This document shows positions 1,898 through 26,894 of a stretch of DNA of 32,353 nucleotides, in pieces; the stretch's first letter is position 1; every line of letters starts with the position of its first letter. The position numbers and the translations under genes are program-made. The notes below the pieces were generated by a model. That model searched no databases, was not told where the DNA came from, and saw only the letters and a program-made list of their open reading frames with translations. This stretch comes from Ruminococcus sp. (GTDB lineage Bacteria > Bacillota > Clostridia > Oscillospirales > Ruminococcaceae): positions 1 through 32,353 of the forward strand of contig NZ_JAGCFH010000327.1 of NCBI RefSeq assembly GCF_017650195.1, given 5' to 3'.

Positions 1898-4456
1898 ATG
1901 AGAAAAAGGATTTCTATTCTTACGGCAGTAATAATCGCGATGTCAGCGCTGGAAGCTATGCCTTCCGTTGCTGCCGACAATGACTATCTGCTCCACAGCA
2001 CTTTTGAGGACAGTGCTGAACAATGGAGTGGCAGAGGCTCCGCTTCTGTAAAGGTAGTTACAGGCATATCTCGCTCGGGAGAATGCTCGCTTAAAACAAG
2101 CGGCAGAGCGAGTGCCTGGAACGGAGCTACTGTTGGTCTGAGCTCTGACTTCGTCGCAGGTCAGAACTACGCCTTCAGCGCTTACGTAATGACTGAGGAG
2201 GCGTCGGAGACCTTCTACCTGACGTTGCAATACAGCGACGGAAGCAGTACAAAGTATCCGAAGATCGCAGAGGTCACCGCTGAAAAGGGGCAGTGGGCTC
2301 ACCTAGAGAACAACAGCTTCACGATCCCGGACGGAGCATCAAATATCCAGCTCTATATCGAGTCGGATTCCAGCGTGTGTGATTTCTACGTTGACGAGGT
2401 CGTAGGTGCAAAAAGCGGTACAGAAATAGGGGAGCCGTCCGCACCTGTTACCATGCACAAGGGCGATATCAATTATGACGGAAAGATAGACTGCTTTGAT
2501 ATCGTGCTAGCGAGAAAAGGTCTTATCAGCGGAATCGAGGACAAAAAGTCCATCAAGGCGGCTGATGCGGATAGCAACGGCGTTTTTGAGGTAAATGACG
2601 TTTTGCTTATTACTCAGTTCGTGCTCGGCTCTATCAGTGAGTTTCCTGTTATCGAGCCAGAGATCGTTCCTGGTCAGCAAAAGTACACCATGGAAGAGCT
2701 TACTCAGATGGTTCAGGATTCTCTTGTAAACAACGAGCCTAATGATTCACACATGGAAAAGAACGGAGTTCAGTACGGTACTATTAAGAAGGAGACCTAC
2801 TTCTCCAAGAAGGCTAACAAGAACAAGCCATACAATATCCTTCTTCCCGCAAACTACGACGAGAGTAAACAGTATCCTGTACTCTATGTTCTTCACGGAT
2901 TCTTCGAGAATGAGGACCGTATGATAAAAACGGGCAACAACAACCAGCCGATGTATACAAAGCAGATCATAGGCAACGCTATCGCTTCCGGCGAGGCTAA
3001 GGATATGATAGTAGTCGTACCGTTCGTATTCACAAGCGCGACCATGAACGACGCTACGGGTTTTGCAGATCAGGGCTCGAACGAAGGCTACGACAACTTC
3101 GTAGACGATATAGTTGACAGCCTTATGCCTCATATCGAGAGTAAGTACAGCGTAGCTACGGGCAGAGAGAATACGGCTGTAACCGGCTTCTCAATGGGTG
3201 GACGAGAGTCTCTTCAGATCGGTATGAAGTATGGCAGCAAGTTCGGTTACGTAGGAGCCATATGTCCTGCCCCAGGCACACAGGGCTCATTCAAGTGGAA
3301 CAGCGCCGATGAGACACCTTATCTTATCATGATAACCGGTGGCACACAGGATGATGTTGTCGGACTTAATACTCCCGAGGGATATCATAACAACTTCAAA
3401 AATAACAATGTACCTCATGTATGGCACGTTGTAAACAACGGTCATCACGGTGACGATTCTATCCATTCACATCTTTACAGTTTTGTAAGAGGTATATTCC
3501 AGGCGACTGAGGGGAATGTAACCCAGTCCTCTTCAGTAACTACCACTAGAACCAATTCGGAAAAGACAACAACGACCACAGTTTCAACGACCAGCAAGAC
3601 TAATACCTCAAGCGGTCAGCTAAGATACACTATGGAGGAGCTTACAAAGATAGTGCAGAATTCGCTGGTAAACAATGAACCGTATGATTCTCATAGCATG
3701 AAACAGGGAGTTCAGTATGGTACTATCAAGAAGGAGACCTACTTCTCCAAGAAGGCTAACAAGAACAAGCCATATAACATAATGCTTCCTGCAAACTACG
3801 ATTCGAGCAAGAAGTACCCTGTACTCTATGTTCTTCACGGCTTCTTCGAAAATGAGGACCGTATGATAAAAACTGGCAATAACAATCAGCCGATGTATAC
3901 ACAGCAGATAATCGGCAACGCTATTGCTTCCGGCGAGGCTAAGGATATGATAGTAGTCGTACCGTTCGTATTCACCAGCGCGACTATGAATGACGCTACA
4001 GGTTTCGCTGATCAGGGCTCAAATGAGGGCTACGACAACTTTGTAGACGATATAGTTGACAGCCTCATGCCTCATATCGAGAGCAAGTACAGCGTAGCAA
4101 CAGGCAAAGAGAATACCGCTGTAACCGGCTTCTCAATGGGTGGACGCGAGTCTCTCCAGATCGGTATGAAGTACGGCAGCAAGTTCGGTTACGTAGGAGC
4201 TATATGTCCTGCACCTGGCACACAGGGTTCATTCAAGTGGAGCAGCGCTGCTGATACACCGTATCTCATAATGATAACCGGTGGCACACAGGATGATGTT
4301 GTCGGACTTAATACTCCCGAGGGATATCATAACAACTTCAAAAATAACAATGTACCTCATGTTTGGCACGTTGTGAACAACGGTCACCACGGTGACGATT
4401 CTATCCATTCACATCTCTACAGCTTCGTAAGAGGTGTATTCCAGGCAACTGAATAA
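1898..4456 (+). CDS. Secreted dockerin-bearing CBM22-like / tandem CE1 esterase
   Basis: Probable cellulosomal hemicellulose esterase (feruloyl or acetyl xylan esterase, CE1-like alpha/beta hydrolase). A signal peptide covers residues 1-26. A CBM22-like xylan-binding module follows at about 32-170 (FEDSAEQWSGRGSA, SGRASAWNGA). An internal type-I-like dockerin spans about 189-248, with loops at 190-201 and 223-234. Two esterase domains then occupy 263-538 and 577-852, joined by a Ser/Thr-rich linker. Each esterase has LHG, GFSMGG (Ser432, Ser746), TGGTQDD (Asp485, Asp799) and NGHHGDD (His516/517, His830/831), so both look active. By eye the two domains differ at 16 of 276 positions. A dockerin in the middle rather than at the C-terminus is less common. 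Start chosen from the AAAAGGAGG site 8 bases upstream. Feruloyl versus acetyl specificity cannot be told from sequence. Confidence 0.88.
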   Translation: MRKRISILTAVIIAMSALEAMPSVAADNDYLLHSTFEDSAEQWSGRGSASVKVVTGISRSGECSLKTSGRASAWNGATVGLSSDFVAGQNYAFSAYVMTEEASETFYLTLQYSDGSSTKYPKIAEVTAEKGQWAHLENNSFTIPDGASNIQLYIESDSSVCDFYVDEVVGAKSGTEIGEPSAPVTMHKGDINYDGKIDCFDIVLARKGLISGIEDKKSIKAADADSNGVFEVNDVLLITQFVLGSISEFPVIEPEIVPGQQKYTMEELTQMVQDSLVNNEPNDSHMEKNGVQYGTIKKETYFSKKANKNKPYNILLPANYDESKQYPVLYVLHGFFENEDRMIKTGNNNQPMYTKQIIGNAIASGEAKDMIVVVPFVFTSATMNDATGFADQGSNEGYDNFVDDIVDSLMPHIESKYSVATGRENTAVTGFSMGGRESLQIGMKYGSKFGYVGAICPAPGTQGSFKWNSADETPYLIMITGGTQDDVVGLNTPEGYHNNFKNNNVPHVWHVVNNGHHGDDSIHSHLYSFVRGIFQATEGNVTQSSSVTTTRTNSEKTTTTTVSTTSKTNTSSGQLRYTMEELTKIVQNSLVNNEPYDSHSMKQGVQYGTIKKETYFSKKANKNKPYNIMLPANYDSSKKYPVLYVLHGFFENEDRMIKTGNNNQPMYTQQIIGNAIASGEAKDMIVVVPFVFTSATMNDATGFADQGSNEGYDNFVDDIVDSLMPHIESKYSVATGKENTAVTGFSMGGRESLQIGMKYGSKFGYVGAICPAPGTQGSFKWSSAADTPYLIMITGGTQDDVVGLNTPEGYHNNFKNNNVPHVWHVVNNGHHGDDSIHSHLYSFVRGVFQATE
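2684..4453 (+). repeat. In-frame 828-bp tandem duplication (CE1 domains)
   Basis: Copies at 2684-3511 and 3626-4453 have identical length and are separated by 114 bases encoding the linker. Long blocks are identical even at silent positions, for example about 90 bases from around 3330 and again around 4272. Most differences lie in the first 60 codons. This indicates a recent duplication or ongoing gene conversion. Confidence 0.95.
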
Positions 4457-4463
4457 TAAAAAA

Positions 4464-4492
4464 CAGCCGGCAGTCATTTAAAACTGCCGGCT
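4464..4492. terminator. Bidirectional terminator between convergent secreted-protein genes
   Basis: Perfect 11-bp stem CAGCCGGCAGT / ACTGCCGGCTG with a 7-base loop. On the minus strand it is followed by TTTTTTATT, the stronger orientation; on the plus strand by AATTGTTTTA. It serves both the CE1 gene and the minus-strand dockerin-repeat gene. Confidence 0.9.
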
Positions 4493-4500
4493 GAATTGTT

Positions 4501-6036
4501 TTATCCCTGATCAAGAAGTCTTGTCTGTATCATCTGTGCGTCGCCAACGGTTATACCGTCGCCTGTATTGTTTACATCGCCGTTGAATCTCTCTGTGCAG
4601 GACAGCTGATATCTGTCTGGATTTGCAAGCGCCTGCATGATCTTTACAGCGTCTGAAAGATCCACATTGCCGTCGCTGTTTGCGTCGCCTGAGCGCTCAA
4701 CATCGACATCAGATGTACAAGCCGGGCTGAGCTTTTCGGGATGATACTTGACTGATGAGATGCCGTTGATATCTGCTAGCATTTCAACGTAAGCCGAGTA
4801 GCTTTCCTGGAAGCTGCCGTAAAGCTCGTCTGTTTCCTCGTCACTTATATTGAACGAGTAAGCAAGATCAAGTATTTTCAGATCGTGGACATCACCGCTT
4901 AATCCGTTTCCGTTGATATCGCAGTTCTCTGAGAAGAATTTCCATACATTCTTGGGGAGCACCGAAGCATCAGCACCGGAAGCTGACTGAAGATCCTCAC
5001 TGTAGATGATGGTGTTGAAAAGATCGGTAATGCCTATAACGCCATCACCATCCGTATCGGGAAGCTGAGCTTCGCCTGACTCCAGTATTTTCCAGTAATC
5101 AGTGAATTCTCTGTTGAATAATGCTCCGTTATATTCTGTGTACTCGCTGTTTGAGAGCCACTCGTTGCAATTGAACCTGAGGCATTTGGCCAGTGCAAAC
5201 TTTCCTGAACCTTCAAGTAAACTGTCATAGTAGGCTTCATCGAACTGCTTTGAGGTAACTCCGTTCTTTTCGATGCAGTACATTTCTGCATACTCATAGA
5301 ACCAGTCAATCATGAGCTCGGAGGAAACATAGTCGTAGGCTGCTTTGCAGCGTTCGGTTATCTCCTCTGGAACGGCAGGCTTTTCCTCGTCGGGCAGGCT
5401 GCTGAACATAAAGAAGTGCTGGTTATAGCCGTAAAGCCATAAATAGTTCAGGTCTGCGTAATCGTAAGTGCCGTCGCCGTTTACATCGCAGTTTAAATCG
5501 CCGCTGAGCTCAGCCTCGCAGAACGTCGGATAGGACGCCATGAGGTAATTTGACTGGATGCTCAGCTCGTCGATGAAGTCGTCAGAGAGGGAACGCTCAG
5601 GCATGCTATCGAAGTGGCAGGGAACATTGATTTCTACAGTGTACTGACGGTCGATGTCAGTATAAGACTCTGACGAAAGATCCTTTATCTTCAGACCGTT
5701 GTTGAGAAGATAGAATCTGATGAGGTGCTCTGCATCGTTCCTGTCAACTTCGCCGTTATTGTCGTAATCTCCGATGGAGGCGATATTTTCAGCAATAGTT
5801 TCGTCTGTCTCTGAGGATACAGTGTATCCGAAAAACAGTGCGCAGTCGGTAAGGTCGAAGGAACCGTTTCCGTCGATGTCGGTAACAAGGTCACCGTTCT
5901 CCATCATTGGGAACATTTCTATTTCCTCGTCCCATATTCTTCCGGCAGGAACATTTTCAAACATTGCATTTGCAGATAATGCTGCGGCATTTAAAGCAGT
6001 TGCTATAGCAGCTGCAGCCGCGGTTAACTTCTTCAT
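4501..6036 (-). CDS. Secreted protein with seven dockerin-type calcium loops
   Basis: Function unknown; 511 aa with a signal peptide (residues 1-24, Ala-rich core). It has seven EF-hand-like dockerin loops: residues 53-64 (DIDGNGSFDLTD), 90-101 (DYDNNGEVDRND), 184-195 (DVNGDGTYDYAD), 327-338 (DTDGDGVIGITD), 373-385 (one extra residue), 451-462 (DANSDGNVDLSD) and 487-499 (one extra residue). They form pairs 1-2, 4-5 and 6-7, with loop 3 apparently alone. The last pair is C-terminal, where a normal dockerin would sit. No catalytic or carbohydrate-binding domain is recognised between them; 196-326 is acidic and aromatic. An ATG at 6054 is possible, but the AAAGGGG site 9 bases before 6036 favours the second Met. 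It may be a cell-surface or cellulosome accessory protein; that role is inference. Confidence 0.8.
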   Translation of the reverse strand: MKKLTAAAAAIATALNAAALSANAMFENVPAGRIWDEEIEMFPMMENGDLVTDIDGNGSFDLTDCALFFGYTVSSETDETIAENIASIGDYDNNGEVDRNDAEHLIRFYLLNNGLKIKDLSSESYTDIDRQYTVEINVPCHFDSMPERSLSDDFIDELSIQSNYLMASYPTFCEAELSGDLNCDVNGDGTYDYADLNYLWLYGYNQHFFMFSSLPDEEKPAVPEEITERCKAAYDYVSSELMIDWFYEYAEMYCIEKNGVTSKQFDEAYYDSLLEGSGKFALAKCLRFNCNEWLSNSEYTEYNGALFNREFTDYWKILESGEAQLPDTDGDGVIGITDLFNTIIYSEDLQSASGADASVLPKNVWKFFSENCDINGNGLSGDVHDLKILDLAYSFNISDEETDELYGSFQESYSAYVEMLADINGISSVKYHPEKLSPACTSDVDVERSGDANSDGNVDLSDAVKIMQALANPDRYQLSCTERFNGDVNNTGDGITVGDAQMIQTRLLDQG

Positions 6037-6097
6037 GGCGGGTACCCCTTTCATACTTAAAAAATGGTTACGGGTGGATATATTATTTTATACTTAT

Positions 6098-20925: not shown

Positions 20926-21432
20926 ATGCCTGCAATAGAGACCGAAAGGCTTCTGATACGTCCGTTTAGGCTGAGTGACGCGGAGGACGCTTTTGAATGG
21001 CGCTCCGACCCTGAGGTAAACAGGTTCATGCCATATCCCTGTGATACAGACATTGCGGCTTTAAGGCAGAGGATAGGGGAATGGATCAAGGAGAAGGACA
21101 AGTTTGCCTTAGAGCTCAAGGAGACTGGAAAGGTTATCGGAGATATCAGTCTTGAATGGAGCGAAAAGGACAAGGCATATGAGATCGGCTACAATATAAA
21201 CCGCAGATTCTGGGGCAGAGGATATGCAACGGAGGCGGTCAGTGGACTTCTTGACTGGGCGACAGTCGAAATCGGAGCTCATGATTTTACGGCTTTTTAT
21301 GCGATGGAGAACGGAGCTTCAGGGAGAGTTCTTGAAAAATGCGGATTTCGTCAGGAGTACACCGGACGTTATTCTCGTAACGATGGCAGCGAGGTATTTG
21401 AGGCTGCTTTCGTAAGGATACATATTGAATAG
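20926..21432 (+). CDS. GNAT acetyltransferase (RimJ/RimL-like)
   Basis: 168-aa N-acetyltransferase of the RimJ/RimL/SpeG type, cytosolic. Marks: ETERLLIRPFRLSDAEDAF at the start, RRFWGRGYATEAVSGLL (acetyl-CoA pyrophosphate loop), and ENGASGRVLEKCGF (last helix of the fold). The substrate is unknown. It has almost no ribosome binding site and begins 3 bases after the xylB stop, so translation probably depends on coupling. A hairpin follows before the methyltransferase gene. Confidence 0.85.
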   Translation: MPAIETERLLIRPFRLSDAEDAFEWRSDPEVNRFMPYPCDTDIAALRQRIGEWIKEKDKFALELKETGKVIGDISLEWSEKDKAYEIGYNINRRFWGRGYATEAVSGLLDWATVEIGAHDFTAFYAMENGASGRVLEKCGFRQEYTGRYSRNDGSEVFEAAFVRIHIE

Positions 21433-21438
21433 ATATAC

Positions 21439-21463
21439 AAAGGCGGACGGAAAGTCCGCCTTT
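21439..21463 (+). other. Strong intercistronic hairpin without a long T tract
   Basis: Perfect 10-bp stem AAAGGCGGAC / GTCCGCCTTT, 5-base loop, followed by only TTTGG. Likely a weak terminator or an RNA-processing/stability element separating GNAT from the methyltransferase gene. Confidence 0.6.
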
Positions 21464-21481
21464 GGAAATTGTGAGGTAATT

Positions 21482-23542
21482 ATGGATTATTCACAGTTGA
21501 AAAGATTTGCAGCCCGGCAGAGGAGCCTTCTGCTTACAGAAGATGAGGAGAAAGTAGCGTACTACGGTTTTATGCGGCTATGCGCTCTCGCAGTTGCGGA
21601 TCGGTCTGCGCTTGAAGAGCTGAATGCTTTGCCATTGGAGCTGCGTTGCGCATATTTTAGGGAGAAATGCAGTCAGTTCGGAGAGGTTTTTGGCGGTATA
21701 TTCAATCTGTACAGTGAACTGCCGCTCCCGTCTCAGCTTTTAGCTGAGGACGGGACTTCAGCAGAGCTTCAAGGGATTCAGTGTGAGTATTTCGACGATG
21801 TAAGAGTGCTCGGATGGCTGCACCAGTACTACAACGAGCCTTACAGGAACGAGATAGCAGTCGGTCTGAAAAGCAGCAAGCGTCTGAGCGTGGACAGGGT
21901 AGCGGCAGCAACGCAGATATTCACTCCCGACTGGATAGCAGACTATATGGTGCAAAATACGCTGGGGCGCTATCTGCGCAGCCACGGTTTCTACATTGCC
22001 ACTGGTGAAGCTTATTTCGACGATGACAAAATTTGTAAAGGAAGTATCTGTCCCGAGGATATAAAGCTTATCGACCCGTGTTTGGGCTGCGGACATATCC
22101 TCCTCTCTGCATTTGATGTATTTATGGAGCTTTACCGTATCTGTGGCGTACCTGAGTCGACGGCTGCTGAAAAGATAATGCAGCATAATCTCTTTGGACT
22201 TGAGTTGGACGAAAGGGCGTGCGCGGTGGCGGAGACGGCTCTGAGGCTTAAAGCCGCGGAATACGGTGCATCGATCAAGCCGCAGGTGTACGATCTTGCG
22301 GGAGTTAGTGAAATTGTCGGATCACTCATAAACAGCGAAGATATAAGGATAACTGATGATAAGACCGCATTTATCAGTCAGATATTGAATGAAAAATACG
22401 ACATTATCGTAACTAATCCACCTTATCTTGGAAAAGCTGCCATGAACGTCGAATTATCGAGATTTATAAGTGAACGCTACAGTGCTTACGGTGCCGATCT
22501 GTTCTCGGTATTCATAGCTAAGGCTATAAAAATCTGCGCAAAAAATGGTCATCTTGGTTTTCTTACGCCATCCACATGGCTCTTCTTACAGTCCTACGAG
22601 AAGCTGAGACGGCTTATCTATAAAGAATGCAGCATACAGACAATGCTCCACTTTGAGTATTCAGCTTTCGATGACGCAACTGTCCCACTTTGTGCGTTTA
22701 CTATGAAAAAAGTGCCTGACTGCGGCAGGGGAACCTATTTACGGCTTTCGGATTTCAAAGGCAATATGGAACTCCAGAGGCAGAAATGTCTTGAAGGGAT
22801 AAGTGATAAGAACTGTACTTATCGCTTTGAAGTCAATACTTCGGATTTTCTTCGCATACCGACTGCCCCTGTGGCTTACTGGTTAGGCAAAGGGTCATTA
22901 AAGGCATTTGATGGCATGACCCTTGGGGAAACTGTTCCAGTCAGGGAGGGCCTTATAACCGGAGATAATGACCGATTTTTGCGAAGGTGGTACGAAATCA
23001 GTAAAGATAAAATAGATTTTACGGTCAGTCATAAAAAGAAATGGTTTCTGCTGAATAAGGGTGGAGAGTACCGCAAGTGGTACGGGAACAGAGAATTTGT
23101 CGTAAACTGGGAGAACGACGGGGCTGAGATAAAGAGCTTCCGAGACGTCAGCGGCAAGTTACGTTCCCGTCCTCAGAGCCTTGATTATAATTTCAGACCT
23201 TCGGTAAGTTGGTCTCAGATAACCAGTGGCGAGCTCTCGGTCAGATATTTCGACAGCACCTTCATGTTCAATGTTGCCGGTACAAGCGCTTTTCCAGGTA
23301 GTGAAGATGAACTTCTTCTGCTCCTCGGGCTCCTAAACAGCAAGACAGCCTCGTTTCTTGCCCGTGTGCTTAATCCGACATTGAACATGAATCCCGGCGA
23401 CCTTGCAAGGCTTCCTATGCCTGAGCTTCCAAATGACTGTCAGGCTGCTAAGGAGCTTGTACGGGAGAATATCCGGCTGTGCCGCGAGGACTGGGACAGC
23501 TTTGAGACATCTTTTGAGTTCAGGCGACACCCTCTTGTATGA
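21482..23542 (+). CDS. PglX-like (BREX-1 type) adenine-specific DNA methyltransferase, short form
   Basis: 686 aa. Family marks: LGWLHQYYNEP and AAATQIFTPDWIADYMVQNT (residues 109-160), motif I DPCLGCGH (198-205), and the adenine-methylase NPPY (312-315). The segment after it (DLFSVFIAKAIKICAKNGHLG, STWLFLQSYEKLR) is also as in PglX. It ends at DWDSFETSFEFRRHPLV, the segment that in typical roughly 1,100-1,200-aa PglX is followed by a further C-terminal region, absent here. Motif I has Cys where Ser is usual. No pglZ, brxA/B/C or brxL is present in the window. ATG at 21482 follows GTGAGGT; an upstream in-frame ATG at 21425 overlaps the GNAT gene. It may be an orphan epigenetic or defence methylase, or a degenerate survivor. 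Confidence 0.82.
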   Translation: MDYSQLKRFAARQRSLLLTEDEEKVAYYGFMRLCALAVADRSALEELNALPLELRCAYFREKCSQFGEVFGGIFNLYSELPLPSQLLAEDGTSAELQGIQCEYFDDVRVLGWLHQYYNEPYRNEIAVGLKSSKRLSVDRVAAATQIFTPDWIADYMVQNTLGRYLRSHGFYIATGEAYFDDDKICKGSICPEDIKLIDPCLGCGHILLSAFDVFMELYRICGVPESTAAEKIMQHNLFGLELDERACAVAETALRLKAAEYGASIKPQVYDLAGVSEIVGSLINSEDIRITDDKTAFISQILNEKYDIIVTNPPYLGKAAMNVELSRFISERYSAYGADLFSVFIAKAIKICAKNGHLGFLTPSTWLFLQSYEKLRRLIYKECSIQTMLHFEYSAFDDATVPLCAFTMKKVPDCGRGTYLRLSDFKGNMELQRQKCLEGISDKNCTYRFEVNTSDFLRIPTAPVAYWLGKGSLKAFDGMTLGETVPVREGLITGDNDRFLRRWYEISKDKIDFTVSHKKKWFLLNKGGEYRKWYGNREFVVNWENDGAEIKSFRDVSGKLRSRPQSLDYNFRPSVSWSQITSGELSVRYFDSTFMFNVAGTSAFPGSEDELLLLLGLLNSKTASFLARVLNPTLNMNPGDLARLPMPELPNDCQAAKELVRENIRLCREDWDSFETSFEFRRHPLV

Positions 23543-23619: not shown

Positions 23620-23706
23620 AAAATAACAAAAATGTTATTTTGCCCTTGAAAATAAGTGTTGTATTCTTTACTGTTTTATGATATAATATACTATATATAC
23701 GTATAT
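23620..23706 (+). promoter_or_regulatory. Promoter and palindromes of the dtxR-murL-murD2 operon
   Basis: TTGTAT (23659-23664), 17-base spacer, TATAAT (23682-23687). Upstream is the AT-rich inverted repeat AAAATAAC-6-GTTATTTT (23620-23641). At the expected transcript start is the palindrome ATATACGTATAT (23695-23706), a plausible operator for the DtxR-type protein encoded next. Confidence 0.6.
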
Positions 23707-23749
23707 GATGTGTTCGGAAATAATTACTTATTTGCAAAGGAGAATCAAA

Positions 23750-24127
23750 ATGGCTATTACTGAAGCAGTTGAAAATTATCTTGAAACTATACTCATATTA
23801 TCACAGAAGCAGCCCGATGTTCATGCAATAGATATATGTTCCTATCTTGGATATTCAAGACCCACGGTCTCTATAATCCTGAAAAAGATGAAGGACGAAG
23901 GGCTTGTTACTGTTGACGACGATAATCACATAAGACTTACTGACGCTGGCAGTATCGTTGCGGAGCGGATATATGACCGTCATACCGTGCTGACTGATTT
24001 TTTCATACACCTTGGTGTGAGCCGCGATGTGGCTGCTGAGGACGCCTGCATGGTGGAGCACGATATCTCCGATGAGACATTTAACTGTATAAAGTCTCAT
24101 TATAAGAAAATTTCTAACAGCAAATAA
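23750..24127 (+). CDS. DtxR/MntR-family metal-dependent regulator
   Basis: 125-aa metal-sensing repressor. Winged helix: LGYSRPTVSIILKKMKDEGL. The dimer/metal domain shows LTDFFIHLGVSRDVAAEDAC and MVEHDIS, carrying the Glu, Cys and His metal ligands. The SH3-like C-terminal domain of DtxR is absent, as in MntR-like short members. ATG at 23750 follows AAAGGAG; the longer frame from 23705 is unlikely. The murL gene begins 32 bases after the stop with its own GGAGG, so the operon links a metal regulator to two cell-wall enzymes. Whether Mn or Fe is sensed is open. Confidence 0.87.
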   Translation: MAITEAVENYLETILILSQKQPDVHAIDICSYLGYSRPTVSIILKKMKDEGLVTVDDDNHIRLTDAGSIVAERIYDRHTVLTDFFIHLGVSRDVAAEDACMVEHDISDETFNCIKSHYKKISNSK

Positions 24128-24159
24128 TCTGACAAGCTGCTCTTTTTCGGAGGAACTAA

Positions 24160-25542
24160 ATGGGAAAATTTGAAGAACTAAGGGAAAAACATCCCGTTTT
24201 TGTATATAAAGCGTATTATGTGAACGAGACCCACGACAGCGTGGAGATAGGCTATGAATTTTCGATACCTGGGCTTGCGGAGTTTCGCCCAAGCTGGAGT
24301 TTCCGCAAACCTGAGAACTTTTCAATAGACGGAGACTTGAATTTTCAGAGGCTTGCTTTTTCTCTCGGAATGGCTGAGGCAGTTAGTTACTGGAAAGCAG
24401 TATGCTCGCCGGAATTCCGGGTCTTATGCGGAGAACTCAATGAGGAACAAATAGCGTGGTGGAAGAAGCTCTGGTATATGGGACTTGGAGAGCTTTTCTT
24501 CGTGAATGGCATAGCAGCTGATCCTGATACCTTTGTAAGAATAGTTCCAACAGGGCATTATGACAGCTCCTTCAGCGAGACCTTCCGCAGTCCAGAGGGG
24601 TGCCTTGTTCCTATAGGCGGCGGAAAAGATTCGGCTCTTACACTGGAGCTCCTTCTCAGGGCTGGGAAGAAGTGTATCTGCTATTCCATAAACAAGCGCC
24701 GTTCCATAACAGATACTGTGACTACAGCTGGGCTTCCCGAGGAAGCTCTCATTATATCTCACAGGCATTTTGACCGCGCTCTTATAGCCCTAAACGATAA
24801 GGGCTTCATAAACGGTCATACACCGTTTTCGGCGATAGTTGCTTTTTCTGCTGAGATAACTGCTTACCTTAACGGTCTGAAATATATCGTCCTTTCAAAC
24901 GAATCCAGCGCTAACGAGAGCACTGTTGCCGGACAGGACGTAAATCATCAGTACTCAAAGAGCTTTGAGTTTGAAAAGGACTTCCATGAATATGAGGAGA
25001 AGTATCTTCGCACGGGACAGTATTATTTCAGCTTCCTGCGTCCTCTTGCGGAATTCCAGATAGCAAAGATGTTCGTATCCTTCCGGAAATACCTCCCGGT
25101 ATTTAGAAGCTGCAACCTTGGAAGTAAGGTCTCTCCCGATATATGGTGCGGAGAGTGCCCTAAATGCCTTTTCATATGTCTTATACTATCGCCCTTCCTC
25201 AGCCTTGGGGAGCTTAAAAAGATATTCAGTAAGGATATGCTGAACGATGATAAAATGATGGAATACTTCATTGAGCTCATCGGTCAGTCAGAGCATAAGC
25301 CGTTTGAGTGCGTGGGAAGCATAGACGAGGTGAATTTAGCTGTATCACTTTCGATACGCAGGCTCGAGGAGGAGGGAGCAGAGCTGCCGCTCCTGTTTGA
25401 GGAATATAAAAAACGCGGACTCTATCACCCAGAGCATATCAGCGCTCTCAACGCGGAGTGCTGCGGTTCCTTTAATGAGCAGAACCTTCTGCCGGCTGAA
25501 TTCAAGACTATACTGACTAAGGAAATGGAGCGTCTGCTTTGA
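24160..25542 (+). CDS. murL: Probable MurL, UDP-MurNAc-L-Ala-L-Glu epimerase
   Basis: 460 aa. It matches the MurL type in overall plan: an N-terminal domain (1-145), then PIGGGKDSALTLELLL (151-166), a PP-loop-like nucleotide-binding sequence, and a C-terminal part with WCGECPKC (329-336). MurL, first described in Xanthomonas oryzae, uses ATP and Mg to epimerise the terminal L-Glu of UDP-MurNAc-L-Ala-L-Glu to D-Glu. The strongest support is the next gene, a MurD-type ligase overlapping by 4 bases (TTGA). An N-type ATP pyrophosphatase of other function is the alternative. GGAGG lies 7 bases before the ATG. The GGGKDS motif replaces the usual SGGxDS form. Confidence 0.8.
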   Translation: MGKFEELREKHPVFVYKAYYVNETHDSVEIGYEFSIPGLAEFRPSWSFRKPENFSIDGDLNFQRLAFSLGMAEAVSYWKAVCSPEFRVLCGELNEEQIAWWKKLWYMGLGELFFVNGIAADPDTFVRIVPTGHYDSSFSETFRSPEGCLVPIGGGKDSALTLELLLRAGKKCICYSINKRRSITDTVTTAGLPEEALIISHRHFDRALIALNDKGFINGHTPFSAIVAFSAEITAYLNGLKYIVLSNESSANESTVAGQDVNHQYSKSFEFEKDFHEYEEKYLRTGQYYFSFLRPLAEFQIAKMFVSFRKYLPVFRSCNLGSKVSPDIWCGECPKCLFICLILSPFLSLGELKKIFSKDMLNDDKMMEYFIELIGQSEHKPFECVGSIDEVNLAVSLSIRRLEEEGAELPLLFEEYKKRGLYHPEHISALNAECCGSFNEQNLLPAEFKTILTKEMERLL

Positions 25543-26894
25543 ACAAATTCTGCGAATATATAAATAAGTACACCGAGGGAAAGACTGTCTGCATACTCGG
25601 CTTCGGACGAGAGGGAAAGTCCACATACAAGATACTGGAGAAGTACTGCTCTCCCAAGTCTGTAGCCATAGCCGACCTGAATCCCGTTGACCGTGAAGCG
25701 AACGGGCTGCCTGAAAGCGTTGAGCTCGTCTGCGGAGAGGGCTATCAAGACTGCCTTGACCGCTTCGATATAGTCTTCAAAAGTCCGGGAATAGTTCTCG
25801 AAAAGAGCCTCTCTGAGCTTAAATGCATGGTGACCTGTGAAACACAGGTGTTCTTTGAGGTATACCGTGAGCAGATAATCGGTATAACCGGCACCAAGGG
25901 CAAGAGCACCGTCACCTCGCTCATATACCATGTTCTCCGTGAAAGCGGAGTTGACTGCCGTATCGCCGGAAATATCGGCATACCCGTGTTCGACATAGCC
26001 GAGGGCATGAAGGACGATACAGTAGTAGTGTGCGAGCTCTCCTGCCACCAGCTGGAATATATGACGGTATCGCCGAGGTCTGCCATATTCCTAAATCTCT
26101 ACGAGGAGCACCTCGACCACTACGGCTCTATGGAAAACTACTACAGCGCAAAGAAGAACATCTACCTGCATCAGGACGTCTGCGACGTGCTGTGGTGCAA
26201 TTACGATATAAGAACAGACGATATACCATCTATCGCGGTAACTGTCTCCAATACCTGTAAGGCGGCAGATGTTTTCGTTGAGGACGGTATCGTTTACGAT
26301 TCCGACGATGAGGAGTACGAGATACCTGTCAGTGATATCAGGCTCCTCGGAACTCACAATCACTACAATATAGCCATTGCGTGGGACGTCTGCAAGGACC
26401 TTGTTGAGGAGGAGGACTTCACAAGAGCTCTGTGTAGCTTCGACCCTCTTGCTCACCGCCTTGAATTCGTGGATACGGTGAGAGGTATACGCTGGTATGA
26501 CGATTCTATCTCAACTGCCTGTGCTACGGCGATATCCGCACTGCAGAGCGTTCCGGAGGTCGGTACCATACTCATAGGCGGCATGGACAGAGGCATAGAC
26601 TATCAGCCCCTTGTGGACTTCCTTGGGGACTTTGACGTAAGAGTTATCTGCATGGAGGCTTCGGGAAAGCGCGTCTACGACATGATACAGGCAGGTGGCT
26701 CTTTCCGGGACAAGGAGCGCGTACACTATGCAGAACATCTTGCAGAGGCTGTGGAGCTTGCTGCGGAGATAACTCCTGAGGGCATGAGCTGTGTTATGTC
26801 TCCTGCGGCTGCAAGCTACGGTATATTCAAAAACTTCGAGGAGCGCGGCGACGCCTTCAAAGCCCTCGTGGCAAGGCTGTCTTCCAATGCGTAA
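25539..26894 (+). CDS. murD2: MurD2-type UDP-MurNAc-L-Ala-L-glutamate ligase
   Basis: Mur ligase, 451 aa, with the MurD order: Rossmann-like N-terminus (CILGFGREGKSTYKIL), ATP loop GITGTKGKST (about 118), NIGIPVFD, LSCHQLEYM, LNLYEEHLDHYGSM, GTHNHYNIA, LAHRLEFV and YDDSISTACATA, then IGGMDRG. Paired with MurL it would add L-Glu (not D-Glu) to UDP-MurNAc-L-Ala. Start TTG at 25539 overlaps the murL stop by 4 bases, so coupling is expected; the first residues NKFCEYINKYTEGK are typical. Its last codons (AAT GCG TAA) lie in an extragenic repeat. Classical MurD cannot be excluded from motifs alone; pairing with MurL decides the call. Confidence 0.82.
   Translation: MNKFCEYINKYTEGKTVCILGFGREGKSTYKILEKYCSPKSVAIADLNPVDREANGLPESVELVCGEGYQDCLDRFDIVFKSPGIVLEKSLSELKCMVTCETQVFFEVYREQIIGITGTKGKSTVTSLIYHVLRESGVDCRIAGNIGIPVFDIAEGMKDDTVVVCELSCHQLEYMTVSPRSAIFLNLYEEHLDHYGSMENYYSAKKNIYLHQDVCDVLWCNYDIRTDDIPSIAVTVSNTCKAADVFVEDGIVYDSDDEEYEIPVSDIRLLGTHNHYNIAIAWDVCKDLVEEEDFTRALCSFDPLAHRLEFVDTVRGIRWYDDSISTACATAISALQSVPEVGTILIGGMDRGIDYQPLVDFLGDFDVRVICMEASGKRVYDMIQAGGSFRDKERVHYAEHLAEAVELAAEITPEGMSCVMSPAAASYGIFKNFEERGDAFKALVARLSSNA

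Follow-up and report, generated by a model that had tools for sequence, protein, structure and literature searches.

A MurL–MurD2 gene pair as the probable sole route to peptidoglycan D-glutamate in a Ruminococcus genome

Two adjoining genes of a Ruminococcus sp. contig (NZ_JAGCFH010000327.1) very probably form a co-translated MurL–MurD2 pair, which would be the organism's only route to the D-Glu of its peptidoglycan. They lie in a stretch of 32,353 nucleotides, called here the window, and are listed in Table 1. In such a route L-Glu would be attached first by MurD2, then flipped to D-Glu by MurL within the precursor. MurL and ATP would give an adenylate on the alpha-carboxylate of the attached L-Glu, and the activated alpha-carbon would lose its proton and regain one on the other face. 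This adenylation would be performed by a zinc PP-loop domain of the QueC/QatC type, a step that we infer here. In X. oryzae (XOO_1319/XOO_1320), the available text of PMC8788868 describes L-Glu ligation followed by an ATP-dependent one-way epimerisation, with the adenylate as its authors' hypothesis, and mentions assayed MurL–MurD2 orthologues from Micromonospora and Salinispora. By analogy, the Ruminococcus proteins would carry out ligation of L-Glu and epimerisation as in X. oryzae.

Table 1. Features of the murL–murD2 locus (window positions)
Feature	Position	Strand	Basis
GGAGGA, probable RBS of murL	24150..24155	+	sequence; inference
MurL-type ORF, 460 aa, ATG start	24160..25542	+	NF041275 match, conserved residues, fold match to QatC/QueC
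TTGA stop-start overlap	25539..25542	+	sequence; NTGA in 22/22 Ruminococcus loci examined
MurD-type ORF (MurD2), 451 aa, TTG start	25539..26894	+	TIGR01087 310.3 bits, E182 + R348, MurD2 clade

A sequence-only reading of this DNA had described a MurL-type protein bearing the motif PIGGGKDS and overlapping a MurD-type ligase by 4 bases. The motif is present in the first product, and both reading frames could be verified, as well as the TTGA common to the murL stop and the murD start. All 22 Ruminococcus loci examined, the window included and one locus (L048) left out, have an NTGA overlap, which reads TTGA in 20, GTGA in one and ATGA in one; the Erysipelotrichaceae and Lentimicrobiaceae murL–murD loci have none. 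Among the MurL-bearing stretches fetched, murL and murD adjoin or are fused, except in one genome (G062) and on two Pseudonocardia plasmids. With this recurrence in Ruminococcus and the adjoining or fused genes elsewhere, the overlap is more than chance, and it probably reflects translational coupling of murL and murD.

A DtxR/MntR-type metal-dependent regulator (23705-24127) lies directly upstream of murL. A PglX-like methyltransferase of 705 residues (21425-23542) reaches 594 bits with the NCBIfam BREX-1 PglX model and was the sole match in a PADLOC scan of six window proteins, with PglX and type IIG models; it is much shorter than the models, which have 1174-1210 residues. Two dockerin proteins, one with esterase and CBM_4_9 domains (1898-4456, plus strand) and one at 4501-6054 (minus strand), are compatible with a cellulosome-forming Ruminococcus.

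The only NCBIfam family matched by the first product is MurL (NF041275; E 3.1e-66, 223.7 bits, residues 69-396), so that the profile search proposed in the sequence-only reading bears out the MurL name; no Pfam model matched. Since this score misses by a wide margin the curated cut-off of 700 bits, a Xanthomonadales equivalog setting, the protein is filed as MurL-type only and not as the Xanthomonadales equivalog. The same model gives 836.5 bits for X. sacchari MurL, 241.4 and 255.5 for the Erysipelotrichaceae and Lentimicrobiaceae relatives, and 321.7 for a Pseudonocardia plasmid homologue. The window and X. sacchari proteins are 29% identical, and their cysteine spacing differs (11 in the window MurL, 15 in Xanthomonas). 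Relatives were found at 24 loci in named genomes, out of 45 candidate stretches: 22 in Ruminococcus, including R. flavefaciens Y1, ND2009 and SAb67, one in Erysipelotrichaceae and one in Lentimicrobiaceae. The MurL tree unites the 38 rows of the genus Ruminococcus with 100/100 support, and Xanthomonas and Pseudonocardia fall outside this group.

Some MurL homologues were seen in other settings. On two mobilizable Pseudonocardia plasmids (L096, 2854-4248; L097, 2812-4212), the gene converges on a WD40 gene, with no MurD in the about 7 kb fetched, and in G062 (L145/L189) no MurD was found in the 11 kb around MurL. A homologue from a phage collection, 42% identical over 99% of the query, lies at 3893-5236 of MT836755.1, an unannotated 8.9 kb 'Bacteriophage sp.' record from human faeces, which is perhaps bacterial DNA filed as phage.

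The second product is best matched in NCBIfam by MurD (TIGR01087, 310.3 bits, cut-off 211.95), and it shares this match and the Mur ligase fold with the canonical MurDs of the order (e.g. G015, G031 and G035). According to the available text of PMC8788868, X. oryzae MurD2 has Glu, Arg, Pro and Phe where E. coli MurD has D182, K348, A414 and L416 (positions are given here in E. coli numbering without Met). Its E197D/R358K double mutant becomes a D-Glu ligase, and its P433A and F435L mutants keep the wild-type stereospecificity (PMC8788868). Since mutating them left stereospecificity unchanged, Pro414 and Phe416 are not treated as MurD2-defining; the window ligase has Ala and Tyr there, unlike X. 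oryzae MurD2. It does have Glu182 and Arg348. Among 93 MurL-linked MurD rows, position 182 is Glu in 85, Asp in 7 and a gap in one (Glu182 in 85/92), and position 348 is Arg in 91 with two gaps (Arg348 in 91/91). In 16 other MurDs, these positions are occupied by Asn (15) or Asp (1) and by Lys (16), with Glu182 and Arg348 each in 0/16. E16 and K113 separate the two sets too (93/93 versus 0/16). The 93 rows consist of 92 ligases beside or fused to MurL, among them that of X. sacchari and partial rows, and of a contig-edge copy from G005; the 16 others are E. coli MurD and 15 over-cut-off MurDs from MurL-lacking genomes of a 40-genome set of the order, that of G005 being left out. Sequence duplicates were removed for the first 43 rows, and closely related genomes remain in the set. 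Position 319, at which K319T permits L-Glu in E. coli MurD (PMC8788868), was rejected as a marker: it is Ile in MurL-linked MurDs and in 14/16 of the others. Close to it, the MurL-linked MurDs of seven genomes of one family (f24; L154-L160) read NDCIAT where most have [ND]DSIST, with Cys at E. coli position 318.

An IQ-TREE analysis of 91 MurD rows separates 74 MurL-linked MurDs and X. sacchari MurD2 from E. coli MurD and the 15 order MurDs, with 99/97 support, in a midpoint-rooted tree with long branches for X. sacchari and E. coli. MurI is found in 12/15 of the MurL-lacking genomes whose MurDs group with that of E. coli. Because of this split, the window ligase has probably not arisen by drift of a local MurD, and transfer or ancient retention appears to be a better explanation. 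Residues and clade thus support a ligase of the MurD2 type, as named in the sequence-only reading, with a predicted preference for L-Glu. The Glu182/Arg348 signature is supportive and no proof, since the MurD of S. mutans, in which Arg also occupies position 348, uses D-Glu, with a slight acceptance of L-Glu (PMC8788868). This enzyme, together with the Asp182 of 7/92 MurL-linked ligases, might suggest that the window ligase takes both Glu isomers, with MurL correcting the L-Glu adduct in one direction; the presence of both Glu182 and Arg348 in the window ligase, and the lack of a detected D-Glu source in its genome, make such a dual use highly improbable.

For the window's own assembly, completeness is 95.7% and contamination 5.4%. 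The TIGR01087 search of this genome gives a single place over cut-off, the ORF of the window; of the four next-best matches (37.8 to 124.7 bits), the two on contig C133 are MurE and MurC. The glutamate racemase model TIGR00067, which matched in 10/14 control genomes and over cut-off in 8, has no match in the genome. The best match to the D-amino-acid transaminase model TIGR01121 (41.9 bits, cut-off 277.45) is a branched-chain aminotransferase, with 495.3 bits to PRK13357.1. The search for murI and a second murD, suggested in the sequence-only reading, thus yielded no murI match and no second MurD over cut-off. That reading had also regarded an only MurD that accepts D-Glu as an argument against itself: the ligase is indeed the sole MurD over cut-off, but it carries the MurD2 residues, falls in the MurD2 clade and belongs to a genome without a detected D-Glu source. 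The genome's division cluster contains mraZ, rsmH, a SpoVD-type PBP gene, murE, mraY and an FtsW/SpoVE-type gene, the last two 34 bp apart, and no murD. The absence of murD from this cluster was dropped as a footprint of the route, the 15 other order MurDs also being without mraY/ftsW in flanks of about 1.5 kb.

MurL and MurI appear to exclude each other across genomes. In the genus (24 genomes, the window's own included), MurL is present in 19/24 and MurI in 1/24; the only genome with MurI (G015) is without MurL and has a MurD with Asn182 and Lys348. Four genus genomes, 66-90% complete, have neither (G004, G005, G013 and G020), and in G005 a contig begins with a MurD that has the MurD2 residues. 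In the 16 non-genus genomes of the 40-genome set, MurI is found in 11, MurL in two (G033 and G037) and neither in three, namely G027 (55% complete), G034 (85%) and G032. The last one, 98% complete, carries a D-amino-acid-transaminase-like gene (C1:78602-79375; 225.3 bits, cut-off 277.45), possibly a third route to D-Glu in the order.

Two larger samples gave the same picture. The first one covers 394 genomes of the order. A strong MurL (E of at most 1e-150) was found in 36 of them, from 8 families, MurI over cut-off in 300, and both in none: MurI is over cut-off in 0/36 MurL genomes versus 300/358 others (Fisher p 9e-26, relatedness ignored). Against the racemase model, 29 of the 36 have no match and 7 a weak one (E 1e-8 to 1e-20; G178, G200, G290, G324, G329, G353 and G377). 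Two genomes with MurI and 18-bit partial MurL matches (G336 and G378) were dropped from the counts. The second sample consists of 145 genomes of the family to which the genome of locus L050 (titled Erysipelotrichaceae) belongs. MurL is present in 19/145. MurI reaches its cut-off in 71 genomes and at least 95 bits in 111, and none of the 19 belongs to either group; at the latter threshold, this makes 0/19 MurL genomes versus 111/126 others (Fisher p 7e-15, relatedness ignored). One MurL genome of this family (G935) has a partial racemase-model match (37 bits, E 2e-9), and three MurL-lacking ones with 37-43 bits only (G868, G927 and G947) were left out of the MurI count. The genomes of L050 and L051 are without a TIGR00067 match. 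Since a strong MurL was found in only one of 398 genomes of the phylum, the window's own, the route looks patchy at this level; two partial matches of 18-22 bits were dropped from that count.

The sequence-only reading had left a choice between loss of the glutamate racemase and two parallel routes. Replacement is favoured because of the MurD2 residues, the MurD2 clade and the lack of any D-Glu source detected in the genome, and the exclusion across genomes points the same way. The second option, a MurL–MurD2 pair beside a racemase and a second MurD, could be imagined inasmuch as a MurI lying in an assembly gap would be missed. There is very little probability left for it, with no second MurD over cut-off here and a near-full-length MurI in 0/36 and 0/19 MurL genomes, several of those of the order being 98-100% complete. 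Another explanation would retain the ordinary D-Glu route, fed by an unrecognised supply such as an unknown racemase or transaminase or the uptake of gut D-Glu; the ligase would then be a standard MurD, and another role would fall to the MurL-like protein. The missed NF041275 cut-off, the weak racemase-model matches in 7/36 order MurL genomes and the G032 transaminase-like gene, which in place of MurI hints at other routes in the order, speak for it. We nevertheless consider it unlikely, given the MurL/MurI exclusion in two samples, the MurD2 residues and clade, the MurL–MurD fusions described below and a genome without over-cut-off match to either D-Glu model. What weighs against the MurL–MurD2 pair as sole route is the NF041275 miss, Asp182 in 7/92 ligases, the Arg of S. 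mutans MurD, the weak racemase matches (7/36 and 1/19), the state of the assembly and the four genus genomes with neither gene.

In four genomes from four different families, MurL and MurD share one open frame, of 911 (G037), 900 (G390), 857 (G121) and 872 (G153) codons from stop to stop. An NCBIfam scan of two of them matched the MurL and MurD halves in both. These genomes are drafts, and the fusions are thus candidate ones.

Structural modelling provides clues about the MurL domain itself. The model of the window MurL matches the zinc PP-loop enzymes QueC, QatC and Cap9 (PDB 2pg3, 3bl5, 9y01 and 9nto) and looks QueC-like in fold, with 11-18% identity over the structural alignments. These enzymes act in preQ0 synthesis or protein conjugation, whereas epimerisation and hydrolysis are proposed for MurL. 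Instead of the QueC motifs SGGxDS and C(x)8CxxCxxC, variants are seen in the MurL rows: GGG[KR]DS in 76/77, the exception being a partial row, and C(x)9-15CxxCxKC in 77/77. The proposed QueC/QatC assignment rests on this modelled fold and these motifs. The Pfam QueC model PF06508 has no match in the window MurL and one in 10 relatives, at E 0.011, and a phmmer search of the window MurL against PDB sequences gave none at E 0.1. A link to QueC through sequence comparison was discarded, the hhalign probability with E. coli QueC being 1.4; a 10-row MurL profile matched TtuA at E 5e-4. A QueC/QatC-type PP-loop fold would be compatible with the published ATP-to-AMP chemistry, and no publication joining PP-loop or QueC with MurL was found in the literature searched.

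The chemistry of the pathway is already known; what is added here is the lineage, the fusions and the fold assignment. As in the Xanthomonas system, both proteins are paired in the window (in X. sacchari, murL is followed by an adjacent murD), no MurI or D-amino-acid transaminase was detected and the ligase has residues of the Glu182/Arg348 type; unlike that system, MurL and MurD are fused in some relatives. The distribution given in the available text of PMC8788868 comprises some Gammaproteobacteria, Alphaproteobacteria and rare actinobacteria, within relatively few genera, and this limited range has led to the proposal of MurL–MurD2 as a narrow-spectrum antibiotic target (PMC8788868). Bacillota are absent from the distribution lists in the available text of two reviews, and no report for Bacillota was found in a search that lay outside the 2017 and 2019 primary papers. 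A Ruminococcus paper and a Brachyspira paper that name MurL were set aside: in their available text, the word stands for glutamate racemase. It seems reasonably probable, with less assurance than for the pair itself, that a sizeable group of gut and rumen Bacillota has replaced the racemase by MurL–MurD2 as its only source of D-Glu, with both enzymes fused into a bifunctional ligase-epimerase in at least four families, and that MurL is a zinc enzyme of the QueC/QatC type in which adenylation drives epimerisation and not amidation.

The annotation models name both the window ligase and X. sacchari MurD2 as D-glutamate ligase, and the substrate is therefore probably mis-stated in many MurD2 records. 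A fused MurL–MurD would offer a single-chain enzyme for epimerase studies, and the QueC-like fold a testable frame for the MurL mechanism, termed unclear in the available text of PMC8788868. If Ruminococcus and further gut Bacillota do depend on this route, drugs directed against MurL–MurD2 would strike commensals too, and inhibitors of MurI would leave such bacteria unharmed.
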